In this document: positions 12,247-16,347 of the stretch, piece after piece
Layout of the letters: the number at the start of each line of letters is the position of its first letter
Numbering within the stretch: position 1 is the stretch's first letter
Source: Gammaproteobacteria bacterium
GTDB lineage: Bacteria; Pseudomonadota; Gammaproteobacteria; Steroidobacterales; Rariloculaceae
Length of the DNA stretch: 58,814 bases
Assembly: GCA_003155415.1 (NCBI GenBank)
Contig: PMCP01000020.1
Location: 1,900 to 60,713, forward strand
Direction: 5' to 3'
Translations under genes and position numbers: made by a program
The notes under the pieces: generated by a model
Seen by the model: only the letters and a program-made list of their open reading frames with translations
Database searches by the model: none
What the model was told of the DNA's origin: nothing

Positions 12247-12936
12247 TCATCTCCGTGGCGTGCCGTCGCCAGCGTGGTTCTCACCGATCGACCGGGACGG
12301 AGCCGCGCTCCAAGCAAACACGAAGTGCCCGGTCAACGCCGCAACGCCCACCAGCGCGAGAACTATGCCGCCGTGCCAAGCGAACGTAATCGCGTTGTTC
12401 GCGTGCTGCAGCGACATGCATGCACCCACGTTGGCCAAGGCACCCACGGCGAGCGCAGCGAATGCCGCCGTGGTTGCGGGGTTCAGCGGCGCACCGCGAC
12501 GCAGCATCACGGCCAACACCCCCATCAGAGGCGCGCCACCCACGAGAATGAAGCCGACGCAAACCCACTCATGGGACGCTGCGAGAACGGTGGTCCAGTC
12601 GAAGTCGCGCGGTGACGCGGCGACGAGAGTCCCAAGCCAAAGGACGGCAGCCACCACGGCCCACACACGCGAACGCTGCGGCAAACCAGGAACTACCGAC
12701 ACGAACGCCGCTCGGGTAGCCAGTAGCCCCATGACGACGGCCGCGATCTGCGACACCCAGAAACCAGCGCCTGCGCCCCCGGCCCGCGTATTGACTGCGC
12801 TCATCCCGACGACAAGCAGGCCGAGATAGACCGCTGCGCCAATAGACCACGCCGCCGCTCTCCGGCCAGCAGGCCTCAACGGTGTGACGGGCTCTAGCCC
12901 TCGACCCAGGTCTTCGATCAGATCGTTCGTGTTCAT
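12247..12936 (-). CDS. nrsF: NrsF-type anti-sigma factor (DUF1109)
   Basis: The 229-residue protein begins with a short cytoplasmic segment (MNTNDLIEDLGRGLEPVTPL) followed by about six membrane helices, the NrsF/DUF1109 architecture. In Caulobacter NrsF holds the ECF sigma factor SigF at the inner membrane and releases it under chromate or cadmium stress, using two conserved cysteines. This protein has exactly two, Cys126 in HEWVCVG and Cys173 in VGACMSL, at matching loop positions as far as I can judge. Its start overlaps the sigma factor stop by 4 bases (ATGA), so the pair is translated together. Confidence 0.88.
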   Translation of the reverse strand: MNTNDLIEDLGRGLEPVTPLRPAGRRAAAWSIGAAVYLGLLVVGMSAVNTRAGGAGAGFWVSQIAAVVMGLLATRAAFVSVVPGLPQRSRVWAVVAAVLWLGTLVAASPRDFDWTTVLAASHEWVCVGFILVGGAPLMGVLAVMLRRGAPLNPATTAAFAALAVGALANVGACMSLQHANNAITFAWHGGIVLALVGVAALTGHFVFAWSAAPSRSIGENHAGDGTPRR

Positions 12937-13505
12937 TCGCGTGTCTTACTCAGCGTGCGCCGTAATGTCGCCATGGCGCGATGCGTGGCCACCTTCAGCG
13001 CGCCGACGCTCGTACCGGATACTTCCGCCGCTTCCTTCAGCGACAACTCCTTGAGCTTCAACAGCTCGATCGCCTGGCGCTGACCCTCCGGCAGCGCACG
13101 CACCGCTGCATGCAGAGCGGCCGCGTCTTCCACCTCGCCGATATCGTCATTCGTAGCGGGCTCCGAAAAGGTTACATCCTCCTCGTCCACATGAATTTCA
13201 CGCCGCGAGATCCGGGCGTACCGGCGCGCGCCGTCGACGAGCCGATTGCGCACGATGGCGAGTAGCCACGGCACGAACGGGCGCGCGGGATCGTAGGTGG
13301 AGCGCACGGTGTGCACCGAGAGCAGCACGTCCTGCAGGAGATCCTCCACCTCCGCGATCCCGGCAAAACCGCGCTGTCGCTTGATGATTTGCCTCACGCG
13401 CGGCGTGATCGTCTTCAGTAGCTCCCGATACGACGCGCCATCGCCCTGCTGCGCTGCGCGCATCAGCTCACCGAGAGAATCGCTTGGCAAGAGGGCGTCT
13501 GTCAT
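12933..13505 (-). CDS. sigF: ECF RNA polymerase sigma factor, SigF-like
   Basis: The 190-residue product has region 2 (YDPARPFVPWLLAIVRNRLVD) and region 4 (ALPEGQRQAIELLKLKELSL, then VSGTSVGALKVATHRAMATL), with a charged linker containing VDEEDVTF. The start is ATG 13503-13505; 20 further residues are open upstream but overlap the promoter of the divergent operon. The partner immediately downstream is an NrsF-type membrane anti-sigma. The divergent bufferin operon carries a GTAACC-N16-CGAA promoter, the type used by the Caulobacter SigF group, so this operon is almost certainly its target. Confidence 0.9.
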   Translation of the reverse strand: MTDALLPSDSLGELMRAAQQGDGASYRELLKTITPRVRQIIKRQRGFAGIAEVEDLLQDVLLSVHTVRSTYDPARPFVPWLLAIVRNRLVDGARRYARISRREIHVDEEDVTFSEPATNDDIGEVEDAAALHAAVRALPEGQRQAIELLKLKELSLKEAAEVSGTSVGALKVATHRAMATLRRTLSKTRE

Positions 13506-13532
13506 GGCCGGCAATGCGAGTTTACGGCACAC

Positions 13533-13558
13533 GTAACCTTTTTGCGGGTTGCGCCGAA
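13533..13558 (+). promoter_or_regulatory. SigF-type ECF promoter for the bufferin operon
   Basis: GTAACC at 13533-13538 and CGAA at 13555-13558 are separated by exactly 16 bases. This is the -35/-10 arrangement I recall for Caulobacter SigF-dependent genes. Transcription would start near 13565, leaving a leader of about 40 bases with an AAGGAG ribosome site before bufA. The motif lies between the divergent sigF and bufA genes. No equally good copy is visible on the minus strand for sigF itself. Confidence 0.75.
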
Positions 13559-13568
13559 TCAACACTCA

Positions 13569-13585
13569 CTGGTCAAACAGACCAG
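13569..13585 (+). repeat. Inverted repeat in the bufA leader
   Basis: CTGGTC at 13569-13574 and GACCAG at 13580-13585 are perfect inverted arms around AAACA. The repeat lies just after the predicted start site and just before the ribosome site. It could be a repressor operator or a small RNA hairpin affecting bufA translation. Function is unknown. Confidence 0.45.
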
Positions 13586-13605
13586 CATTCGTAAGGAGCT
13601 CTTCC

Positions 13606-13872
13606 ATGAACAAACGCATCGTCATTGCTTCGGCGCTCGCGGCCGCCATCGTCGCTCCGTCGCTCGCCTTCGCTGCCCCGGCGGCCGAGCCGACCTTCAA
13701 GGCAGAGAAATGCTACGGGATCGCCAAGGCCGGCAAGAACGACTGCGCCTCCACCGGTAACAACTCGTGTGCCGGCACCACGAAGGCGACGGCGGACCCG
13801 CGCGCGTGGGTCTTCGTACCCGCGGGCTACTGCGAGCGCATCGTCAACGGCAGCCTGACGCCGAAGGCCTAG
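13606..13872 (+). CDS. bufA: Bufferin precursor (DUF2282), copper-binding RiPP-type peptide
   Basis: The 88-residue precursor has a signal peptide (MNKRIVIASALAAAIVAPSL, ending AFA-APA) and a short mature domain with four cysteines: KCYGIAKAGKNDCA, then NNSCAGT and AGYCERI. This is the DUF2282/BufA1 signature. In bufferins an MNIO enzyme converts cysteines to 5-thiooxazoles, and the exported peptide sequesters copper in the periplasm. The AAGGAGCT site is 11 bases before the ATG. The next three genes are the MNIO enzyme, its partner and a DoxX protein, so the operon is complete. The preceding promoter and divergent sigF-nrsF give the regulation. Confidence 0.92.
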   Translation: MNKRIVIASALAAAIVAPSLAFAAPAAEPTFKAEKCYGIAKAGKNDCASTGNNSCAGTTKATADPRAWVFVPAGYCERIVNGSLTPKA

Positions 13873-13874
13873 CC

Positions 13875-14780
13875 GTGAGGGTCGCAGCCGCCACTCGCGC
13901 CGAGCACGGCGCAACCGACTCTCGCCTGGCGGGCGTCGGCTTGCGTTTGCCGCACTTGGCCGAAGTGGCGGCCGGCGCCCCCACGTCTGCGTGGCTCGAG
14001 ATTCATCCGGAGAACTTTCTCGCGAACCCCCACGCGAGGGAGTTGCTCCTCGACATCGCGGAGCGGCACGCCGTCTCGCTGCACACCGTGGGGCTGTCGG
14101 TCGGTAGCGTTGCGGGAGTGGACCGCGAGCATCTGCAGCGGATTCGCCGGCTCGTCGACGAGGTTGAACCGATTCTCGTCTCTGGCCACCTCGCGTGGTC
14201 CACACATCGGGGCGTGTACTTGAACGACCTGCTGCCGCTTCCCTACAACGAAGAGACGCTGCGTGTAGTCGCTACGCACGTCCACGAAGTGCAGGACGCC
14301 CTTGGGCGGCCCTACGTCGTGGAAAATCCCGCGAGCTACCTGGGCTTCGCGGGCTCGACGCGCACGGAGACGGACTTTCTCTCGGAGCTCGTGACACGCA
14401 CGGGCTGCCAATTGCTATGTGACGTGAGCAACGCGTTCTTGAGCGCGGCCAACATGGGCTACGACGCTTATGCGTATATCGACGCGTTCCCCGCGCACGC
14501 CGTTGCGGAGATTCACCTCGGCGGCTTCACGCGCGAGGCCGACGAGGCCACGCCCGGCGGTGAGATTCTCATCGATACGCACGCAGGCGCCATCGCAGAC
14601 TCGGCGTGGGACCTCTATGCGTACGCACTGCGCCGGTTCGGCCCGCGCCCGACGTTGATCGAGTGGGATAACGATCTGCCCTCCTTTTCCCGGCTGTTGG
14701 CCGAAGCCGCTCGCGCTGACGCCGTTGCGACGGACACCTTCAACCGAGCACGCGCACATGCACATGCACTTGCTGGCTGA
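13875..14780 (+). CDS. bufB: MNIO (DUF692) multinuclear iron oxidase of bufferin maturation
   Basis: The 301-residue protein is a DUF692/MNIO TIM-barrel enzyme. Likely iron ligands lie in LEIHPENF, SLHTVGLSVG, VSGHLAWS, VVENPASY, CDVSNAF, EIHLGGFT and IDTHAGAI. The family oxidatively remodels cysteine or aspartate side chains of precursor peptides. The start is GTG 13875-13877, 2 bases after the bufA stop; the longer open frame runs antiparallel to sense through bufA in another frame and is not credible. It overlaps bufC by about 20 bases. It would act in the cytoplasm on unfolded BufA before export. Confidence 0.92.
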   Translation: MRVAAATRAEHGATDSRLAGVGLRLPHLAEVAAGAPTSAWLEIHPENFLANPHARELLLDIAERHAVSLHTVGLSVGSVAGVDREHLQRIRRLVDEVEPILVSGHLAWSTHRGVYLNDLLPLPYNEETLRVVATHVHEVQDALGRPYVVENPASYLGFAGSTRTETDFLSELVTRTGCQLLCDVSNAFLSAANMGYDAYAYIDAFPAHAVAEIHLGGFTREADEATPGGEILIDTHAGAIADSAWDLYAYALRRFGPRPTLIEWDNDLPSFSRLLAEAARADAVATDTFNRARAHAHALAG

Positions 14781-15543
14781 CCTACAAAGCGCCTTCGCTC
14801 ACGCCATGACGACGGGGAAAGCCGGGCCCGTCGTCGAGCACCTCGTCGGCGGCGCCGATCCCGGCAAACGGCTGAACATTCACCTCCGCCACTACGAAGC
14901 GAGCTTAGCCACGGCCCTATGCGAAAAGTTCGAGGCCTGCGCTTGGCTCGCGGGTGCAGACCTCGTGAACGCGGCGGCGCGTGCATACGTACGCGCGCAA
15001 CCGCCGCGCCAGCCTTGCATTGCGGAATACGGCGGCGACTTCCCTGAGTTTCTTGCCCAACACGGCCGAGCGCGGACGATGCCGTATCTCGAATCGTTCG
15101 CGATGCTCGAGTGGGCGGTGGGCCGAGTATCGATCGCGATCGACTACTCGCCCCTCTCGTGGTCGGACGTCGGGCGGATTGGATCAGAGCATCTCGTCGA
15201 TTCGGTGCTCGCACTCCACCCCGGCCTGCGCTACGTGCGCTCGACCTGGGGTGTGGACCAGCTCATGACTACCTACTTAAGCGGTACCCAACCCGAGCGC
15301 TTCGTGCTCCCCGAGTCCGACACGTTCATCGAGGTTCGCGGCGCGCGCGGCACCGTTCACCTTGCGCGACTCGACGGCGCGACCTTCACATTCCGCCGTG
15401 ATCTTGCTGCAGGCCGCTCCGTCGGCGATGCGGCCGAGAGCGCGCTCGAACTCAACTCCACTTTCAATCCCGGCGAAGCACTCGGACTGCTCGTGCACGC
15501 CGGGCTCGTCATCGCAACAACAGCACAGGCCAACGCATCATGA
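14758..15543 (+). CDS. bufC: BufC-type partner protein (DUF2063 domain)
   Basis: The 261-residue protein has the N-terminal helical DUF2063 domain (LLADLQSAFAHAM, then LNIHLRHYEASLATAL and a YLESFAMLEW segment). A less conserved C-terminal half follows, with FVLPESDTF and a predicted beta-rich region. In MNIO systems this protein delivers the precursor to the enzyme. Two close ATGs (14758 and 14764) are possible, both inside the end of bufB. Its stop overlaps the doxX start as ATGA. Assignment rests on the domain look and on gene order. Confidence 0.85.
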   Translation: MHMHLLADLQSAFAHAMTTGKAGPVVEHLVGGADPGKRLNIHLRHYEASLATALCEKFEACAWLAGADLVNAAARAYVRAQPPRQPCIAEYGGDFPEFLAQHGRARTMPYLESFAMLEWAVGRVSIAIDYSPLSWSDVGRIGSEHLVDSVLALHPGLRYVRSTWGVDQLMTTYLSGTQPERFVLPESDTFIEVRGARGTVHLARLDGATFTFRRDLAAGRSVGDAAESALELNSTFNPGEALGLLVHAGLVIATTAQANAS

Positions 15544-16019
15544 TCCAACTTTCCAGGCTCCGAGAACGGCTCGAGCGCTTCCCGTTGTCCTTCCTGCAAC
15601 TCGCCATGCGACTCGGTGTAGGCGCCGTATTCTTTCGTTCGGGGCTCCTGAAGATCGATTCATGGGAATTCACGATCCAGCTGTTTCGCGATGAGTACAA
15701 GTTGCCGTTCATCGATCCGGTGCTGGCGGCGCATGCCGCCGCGACCGTTGAGCTCGGCATTCCTCCGCTGCTAGTCGTCGGACTTGCCACGCGGTTTGCG
15801 ACGCTTCCACTGCTCGGCATGATCGTCGTGATCCAAACGCTCGTGTACCCGAACGCGTGGAGCGATCACCTGATGTGGGCCGCGGCGCTGCTGCTGATTC
15901 TTACTCGCGGGCCCGGCGTTTTCTCGCTCGACCACCTGATCATTCGGACGCAAGCCGCTCGACGTCGCGCGCAGCCAGATGACGCTCGTACGCCGACGGA
16001 TCTTCCAGCGGGGCCGTAG
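15540..16019 (+). CDS. DoxX family membrane protein of the bufferin operon
   Basis: The 159-residue protein has four hydrophobic helices and the DoxX hallmarks LAMRLGVGAVFFRSGLLKI at the N-terminus and LVYPNAWSDHLMWAAALLLI in the last third. DoxX proteins in bufferin operons are conserved but their job is unsettled; roles in redox or quinone chemistry at the inner membrane have been proposed. The start overlaps the bufC stop (ATGA). A polar C-terminal tail of about 25 residues follows the last helix. It closes the four-gene operon. Confidence 0.88.
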   Translation: MIQLSRLRERLERFPLSFLQLAMRLGVGAVFFRSGLLKIDSWEFTIQLFRDEYKLPFIDPVLAAHAAATVELGIPPLLVVGLATRFATLPLLGMIVVIQTLVYPNAWSDHLMWAAALLLILTRGPGVFSLDHLIIRTQAARRRAQPDDARTPTDLPAGP

Positions 16020-16110
16020 AACTGCCGGCCTTGCACATAACGAGGAAGCGTCTGCGGAACTTATGTTCAGCGCCGCTAAAGTTCTAACGCGAGCGGCCGT
16101 CATGGTCGTC

Positions 16111-16347
16111 ATGGACAAGATCGGTTCCATCTTTCAAACCGCGCTCAGCGGCATCCAGACCAACCTGCGCAAGTTGAATGACGCGGCCAACGACATCGCT
16201 ACGGCCCCTGCACGCGGCGCCGAGCCGACCGAGCTCGACAAGTCGCTGGTCGACGCGCTCGAGGCTCAACGTGCGATCGAAGCATCGGCAGTGATCATGC
16301 GCCGTGCGGATCAGGCACTCGGCACACTGCTCGACGCGTTGCGCTGA
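16111..16347 (+). CDS. Mini flagellar-rod-like protein
   Basis: The 78-residue product joins what look like the two ends of a flagellar rod/hook protein with no body between them. The N-terminus, SIFQTALSGIQTNLRKLNDA with AND following, resembles the ALSGMxANxxRLDxxANNxAN helix. The C-terminus, LVDALEAQRAIEASAVIMRR, resembles the rod C-terminal helix of FlgC/FlgG. No other flagellar gene is in the window. Starts at 16063 and 16102 are also in frame. It may form a coiled-coil pair rather than act in a flagellum. Function unknown. Confidence 0.65.
   Translation: MDKIGSIFQTALSGIQTNLRKLNDAANDIATAPARGAEPTELDKSLVDALEAQRAIEASAVIMRRADQALGTLLDALR

Follow-up and report, generated by a model that had tools for sequence, protein, structure and literature searches.

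A bufferin operon facing an ECF16 sigma/anti-sigma pair, with a conserved putative sigma-F promoter inside the sigma gene

How is a bufferin operon controlled by the regulator that it faces, and how does that regulator control itself? Both questions are raised by a locus in contig PMCP01000020.1 of a gammaproteobacterium assigned to the Rariloculaceae (assembly GCA_003155415.1), of which a stretch of 58,814 nucleotides, here called the window, was analysed. At window positions 12247-16019, a Buf1-type bufferin operon (bufA, bufB, bufC and doxX) diverges from sigF and nrsF, which encode an extracytoplasmic function (ECF) sigma factor of the ECF16 type and its membrane anti-sigma factor. We consider it likely that the operon is under the control of this pair and that sigma-F drives, in addition to the bufA promoter, an inner promoter within sigF that would yield nrsF mRNA but no sigF mRNA, making the response self-limiting. 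The two sites are as follows:

13533 to 13558, plus strand: GTAACCTTTTTGCGGGTTGCGCCGAA, predicted sigma-F promoter of the bufferin operon, an exact match to the Caulobacter consensus from rapid amplification of 5' cDNA ends (5'RACE).
13150 to 13175, minus strand: GTAACCTTTTCGGAGCCCGCTACGAA, putative intragenic sigma-F-type promoter on the sense strand of sigF, an exact match lying about 210 bases ahead of the nrsF start.

In the proposed circuit, metal or oxidant stress at the envelope would inactivate membrane-bound NrsF and free sigma-F, as is known for Caulobacter. Freed sigma-F would fire the promoter upstream of bufA, giving a copper-binding peptide together with its maturation proteins (bufABC-doxX), and would also fire the promoter within sigF, giving extra nrsF mRNA and no sigF mRNA. 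Sigma-F would then induce its own brake and not itself, and the response should limit itself.

The site before bufA has the sequence GTAACC-N16-CGAA, exactly that of an ECF16 target promoter. Counting the window, 80 loci with a bufA hit were compared. Where an ECF sigma hit is present (27 loci, three of the hits being weak), GTAAC-N16-18-CG(A/T) precedes bufA in 22; where none is present (53 loci), it does so in 4. Because the site tracks the sigma hit, the bufA promoter can be tied to the regulator. A preliminary description of this DNA had the bufferin operon wired to SigF/NrsF, and gene content, the exact site and published work on the same type of locus all support it; such control is mostly published (Caulobacter, Sinorhizobium) and is not new as stated. 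That description also placed regulator, promoter and product within 3.8 kb; it missed the second sigma-F site inside sigF, a conserved element that is apparently undescribed.

Across the 3.9 Mb genome (82% complete), the strict pattern GWAACCTTT-N12-14-CGAA occurs exactly twice, inside sigF and before bufA, while the reversed control gave no match. The two elements are alike in both halves, in spacing and in the TTT extension. A wider sigma-F regulon cannot be claimed, as a looser pattern produced 32 matches versus 22 in the reversed control.

An ordinary ECF16 locus could in principle contain such a match. Sigma-F would then serve the bufA promoter only, sigF and nrsF would be transcribed together from a promoter that has escaped notice, and the match within sigF would be a by-product of the linker protein motif V/E-T-F-x5-N, which is partly conserved as protein too and encodes in-frame linker residues of a conserved gene. 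To weigh this explanation, 94 distinct sigF-type genes were gathered and placed on a tree from which the motif columns had been left out. In the 42 genes of the window's branch, synonymous codons were shuffled within each gene such that its protein and codon content were preserved. The inner site is present at the aligned position in 31 of the 42 branch genes, whereas 400 shuffles averaged 2.3 and never exceeded 8; for the strict form the count is 24 of 42 (shuffle mean 0.75, maximum 4). Additionally, synonymous conservation in 10-codon windows is highest exactly at the inner site (z of 24, versus 6.9 for the best window elsewhere), and valine at the site is encoded by GTA in 18 of 19 cases, although GTA makes up 10% of valine codons in these genes. 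The codon preceding the -10 element is variable (mostly ACG, GCG or CCG, with residues T, A, P or S), and the next is usually AAT, AAC, AAA or AAG, while CGAA is constant. The amino acids thus change where CGAA does not. We place the constraint at the inner site at the level of the DNA, and the by-product explanation appears unlikely.

Conservation of DNA by itself does not identify what binds it, and the element could be constrained for another cause, such as the binding of another regulator or sigma-induced polymerase pausing. We regard this as very improbable: the element agrees with the bufA promoter of the same sigma factor in both halves and in spacing, TTT extension included, and in the other branch of the family it is exchanged for a sigma-F site upstream of sigF. 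Specifically, among the 94 genes, 32 carry the inner site, 32 carry the upstream site, none carries both and 30 carry neither in exact form. As these states cluster on the tree, the 64 genes do not count as independent observations. Several of the branch genes with neither exact site are a single base off. No sigma-F site was found upstream of the window's sigF, even with one mismatch allowed, and a relaxed upstream promoter for the window's branch was rejected, the one-mismatch hits being merely scattered and varying in position.

Loci from Acidobacteria metagenome-assembled genomes (MAGs) and from relatives of Afipia have the inner site at corresponding codons of the alignment, and Cupriavidus necator N-1 (L168), which can be cultivated in the laboratory, has the inner site too. 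The site is retained regardless of which gene is divergent from sigF (bufA, one for a thioredoxin-like protein or one for another secreted protein), and it is therefore a part of the regulator rather than of the bufferin operon. Taken together, we lean, by a modest degree, toward a broader conclusion: in a large ECF16 branch, the autoregulatory promoter would lie within sigF instead of preceding it, and the anti-sigma factor would mediate negative feedback where the other branch has positive autoregulation. The second cysteine site of NrsF differs between the same two branches, such that sensing of metal stress and its shut-off may differ as well.

Since the inner site had been noticed in the set that was tested, eight plasmid loci were fetched afterwards. 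The inner site is present in exact form in seven of the eight, and the upstream site is absent from all of them. A sigma-F site precedes a neighbouring unit in every case (six divergent, two downstream).

A further explanation accepts the inner site as a real sigma-F promoter but assigns it a different product, a shortened sigma fragment (region 4) or a regulatory RNA in place of nrsF mRNA. The site does lie within the linker, and its transcript would start with the part that encodes region 4. A shortened sigma product was rejected, as the aligned genes share no in-frame downstream start codon, and in the window, as in its relatives, nrsF either overlaps sigF or directly adjoins it. We therefore hold a fragment or RNA product to be quite unlikely, less so than a DNA element kept for some other cause, and prefer nrsF mRNA as the relevant product of the inner promoter.

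Several points weigh against this preferred circuit. Exact inner sites are lacking in 11 of the 42 branch genes, the site was first noticed in the same gene set that was tested first, the branch sequences are related and the shuffle counts consequently overstate independence, and the plasmid check is small (n = 8). Additionally, the promoter of sigF itself was not found, and no sigma-70 promoter was seen in the 100-base gap between sigF and bufA. What speaks for the inner promoter is its sequence and its conservation as DNA, from which we infer transcription by sigma-F. That feedback through the site would limit the response is argued by analogy, and the metal response presumed for this organism is carried over from Caulobacter.

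Six genes make up the locus:

12247 to 12936, minus strand: nrsF, six-helix membrane anti-sigma factor of 229 amino acids with Cys126 and Cys173 (PF06532, 62 bits versus a cut-off of 26.8).
12933 to 13505, minus strand: sigF, ECF16-type sigma factor of 190 amino acids with an ATG start (PF04542 and PF08281, sigma regions 2 and 4, over cut-off).
13606 to 13872, plus strand: bufA, Buf1/DUF2282 bufferin precursor of 88 amino acids with four cysteines and an N-terminal signal peptide (PF10048, 79 bits versus 22.4).
13875 to 14780, plus strand: bufB, MNIO enzyme of 301 amino acids with a GTG start (PF05114, 309 bits; NCBIfam MNIO_BufB, 330.8 versus 310; PDB 3bww, E 2e-30).
14758 to 15543, plus strand: bufC, DUF2063 partner protein of 261 amino acids (PF09836, 62 bits versus 27.2).
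15540 to 16019, plus strand: doxX family membrane protein of 159 amino acids (PF07681, 54 bits versus 23.6).

Each gene was checked against curated Pfam cut-offs. All are intact and all six families (NrsF, ECF sigma regions 2 and 4, DUF2282/Buf1, MNIO, DUF2063 and DoxX) score above cut-off, which bears out the complete bufferin operon facing sigF-nrsF of the preliminary description. Its 100-base gap is likewise exact, measured from the ATG of sigF to the ATG of bufA. The operon genes had been called contiguous and overlapping; they are contiguous, and bufB/bufC and bufC/doxX overlap, but bufA and bufB are separated by 2 bases. The sigF and nrsF genes share 4 bases, and a gene for an ECF sigma factor overlapping one for a six-helix DUF1109/NrsF anti-sigma factor is the arrangement of ECF16 (SigF-NrsF). 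Similarly, a DUF2282 precursor with a signal peptide (judged by eye) and four conserved cysteines (36, 47, 55 and 76), in one operon with an MNIO maturase and a DUF2063 partner, marks a Buf1 cluster, a type further characterised by copper-binding thiooxazoles derived from cysteine. Assignment of BufA to the Buf2 type was ruled out, NCBIfam BufA2 being far under its cut-off and DUF2282 far over. The only DUF2282 gene of the genome and its only MNIO gene are those of this locus, and a search of it for a second bufferin cluster found none. By sequence, no relative of BufC was found in the PDB. Past doxX, a small open reading frame (16078-16347, plus strand) has a sub-threshold match to a flagellar rod protein C-terminal domain (20.4 bits versus 23).

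An AlphaFold2 model of NrsF has six long helices (predicted local distance difference test score, pLDDT, 89.9; predicted template modelling score, pTM, 0.85), while the NCBIfam equivalog AntiSigF_NrsF scores far short of its cut-off on this protein (21 bits versus 300). NrsF does have exactly two cysteines, 126 and 173, as described before. Their proposed role as a sensor pair stands in part. All 70 aligned NrsF sequences have a cysteine at position 126. The second cysteine that has been studied (C181 in Caulobacter, C179 in OsrA of Bradyrhizobium) aligns to window residue 176, a placement that rests on the published motif position, the Caulobacter protein itself being absent from the alignment. 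Thus, of the two conserved positions C131/C181, the first is matched by C126 and the second is Leu176, with Cys173 three residues earlier. Cys173 is common to the window and two other loci, L020 and L137. If the published topology is applied to the model, helices 4 and 5 would carry Cys126 and Cys173 at their periplasmic ends, and because Cys173 is placed at a periplasmic helix end like Cys126, it might substitute for the usual second cysteine.

Column 176 is cysteine in 27 sequences, none of them from the window's branch, and histidine in most of that branch; a second cysteine at this position is not a requirement across the wider family. At window position 108, most of the branch has cysteine and the window has serine. 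Two cysteine layouts are found in this one anti-sigma family, Cys108 with His176 in most of the window's branch and a cysteine at 176 only in the Caulobacter-like group. Published results on NrsF cysteines are not to be transferred untested to the window's branch.

Scanning genome contigs turned up 80 loci that encode a related BufB. The divergent arrangement recurs in at least 14 of these, in Alphaproteobacteria and in one MAG each from Acidobacteria and Gemmatimonadetes. When 58 genomes, counting that of the window, were searched as relatives, only 8 gave an NrsF match, and the BufB proteins nearest to that of the window are from other phyla. Plasmids also carry the cluster: on Nitrobacter hamburgensis plasmid 3 (L171, typed conjugative), sigF-nrsF faces DUF2282, DUF692 and DUF2063 genes. 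Taking these three observations together, horizontal spread of the cluster is likely. On a Paraburkholderia fungorum plasmid (L167), sigF-nrsF-bufA-bufB are co-directional with bufA downstream; a sigma-F site precedes bufA and the inner site is retained. This cluster adjoins a mercury resistance operon (merR, merT, merP and merA).

At six loci (L144, L145, L165, L142, L140 and L141), the gene divergent from an inner-site sigF is not bufA but encodes a secreted thioredoxin-like or TlpA-like protein with CPTC, CPVC or CPAC. Given such divergent genes, thiol chemistry in the periplasm may be a further target of the inner-site sigma branch. Small secreted proteins without a recognised family are divergent from inner-site sigF at L091, L163, L138, L139 and L164, with a sigma-F-type site between. 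The sigF match nearest to that of the window (L136, 62% identity) contains one TGA in the matched stretch, reflecting either a broken gene or a sequencing error.

What is new here is that one family offers a natural contrast, with shared output genes, between a sigma factor that activates itself and one that would activate its brake alone. How the sign of the feedback shapes the response to metal stress can thereby be tested directly. Additionally, promoter searches that cover intergenic DNA only will overlook a conserved component of such circuits.

The closest known counterpart is Caulobacter CC3252-CC3257 (NrsF-SigF and the buf1 operon), which is alike in its six genes, divergent layout and GTAACC-N16-CGAA before the DUF2282 gene (PMC3511200, PMC8224329). 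There, the promoter was defined by 5'RACE, chromate and cadmium induce genes through sigma-F, and serine at C131 or C181 of NrsF derepresses the target genes (PMC3511200). Copper induces the whole regulon, including sigF and nrsF, and a sigF mutant is copper-sensitive (PMC8224329). However, Caulobacter has a sigma-F promoter upstream of sigF, and its sigF mRNA rises with copper, whereas the window has none upstream and one within sigF. The position of the second NrsF cysteine also differs, and the Caulobacter regulon includes a second cluster and MsrPQ, whereas the window's genome has the strict site at one locus only.

In Sinorhizobium meliloti, the ECF16 pair RpoE7-EcfR7 faces the same kind of operon (SMb20530-SMb20527, with DUF2282-like, DUF692 and DUF2063 genes), but the promoter is upstream of rpoE7, and no induction was seen with peroxide, cadmium or chromate (PMC6180224). 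Bradyrhizobium EcfF-OsrA is likewise an ECF16 sigma factor with a six-helix DUF1109 anti-sigma factor, and OsrA Cys129 corresponds to window Cys126; in contrast, ecfF is autoregulated from an upstream promoter and has other targets, and the Cys179 site of OsrA is not cysteine in the window (PMC3420878). With Buf1 bufferins/captophorins the window shares the four-cysteine DUF2282 precursor with signal peptide, MNIO, the DUF2063 partner and DoxX, and no difference in gene content was found (PMC12452194, PMC13097082); according to a 2025 survey, genes for sigma factors and for NrsF occur in Buf1 clusters (PMC12452194). We found no report of a sigma-internal anti-sigma promoter for ECF16, a weak negative given that most subscription journals, including the 2012 EcfS paper, were outside coverage.

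The same feedback logic as that proposed for the window is known from a system that is not a relative, SigH-RshA of Corynebacterium glutamicum, in which a sigH-dependent promoter inside the sigma gene drives the anti-sigma gene only and is proposed to shut down the response (PMC3489674). SigH belongs to an unrelated sigma group, and its anti-sigma factor is soluble and of a different type from the window's NrsF. In C. glutamicum the arrangement was proven by Northern blot and primer extension, whereas in the window it is read from sequence.

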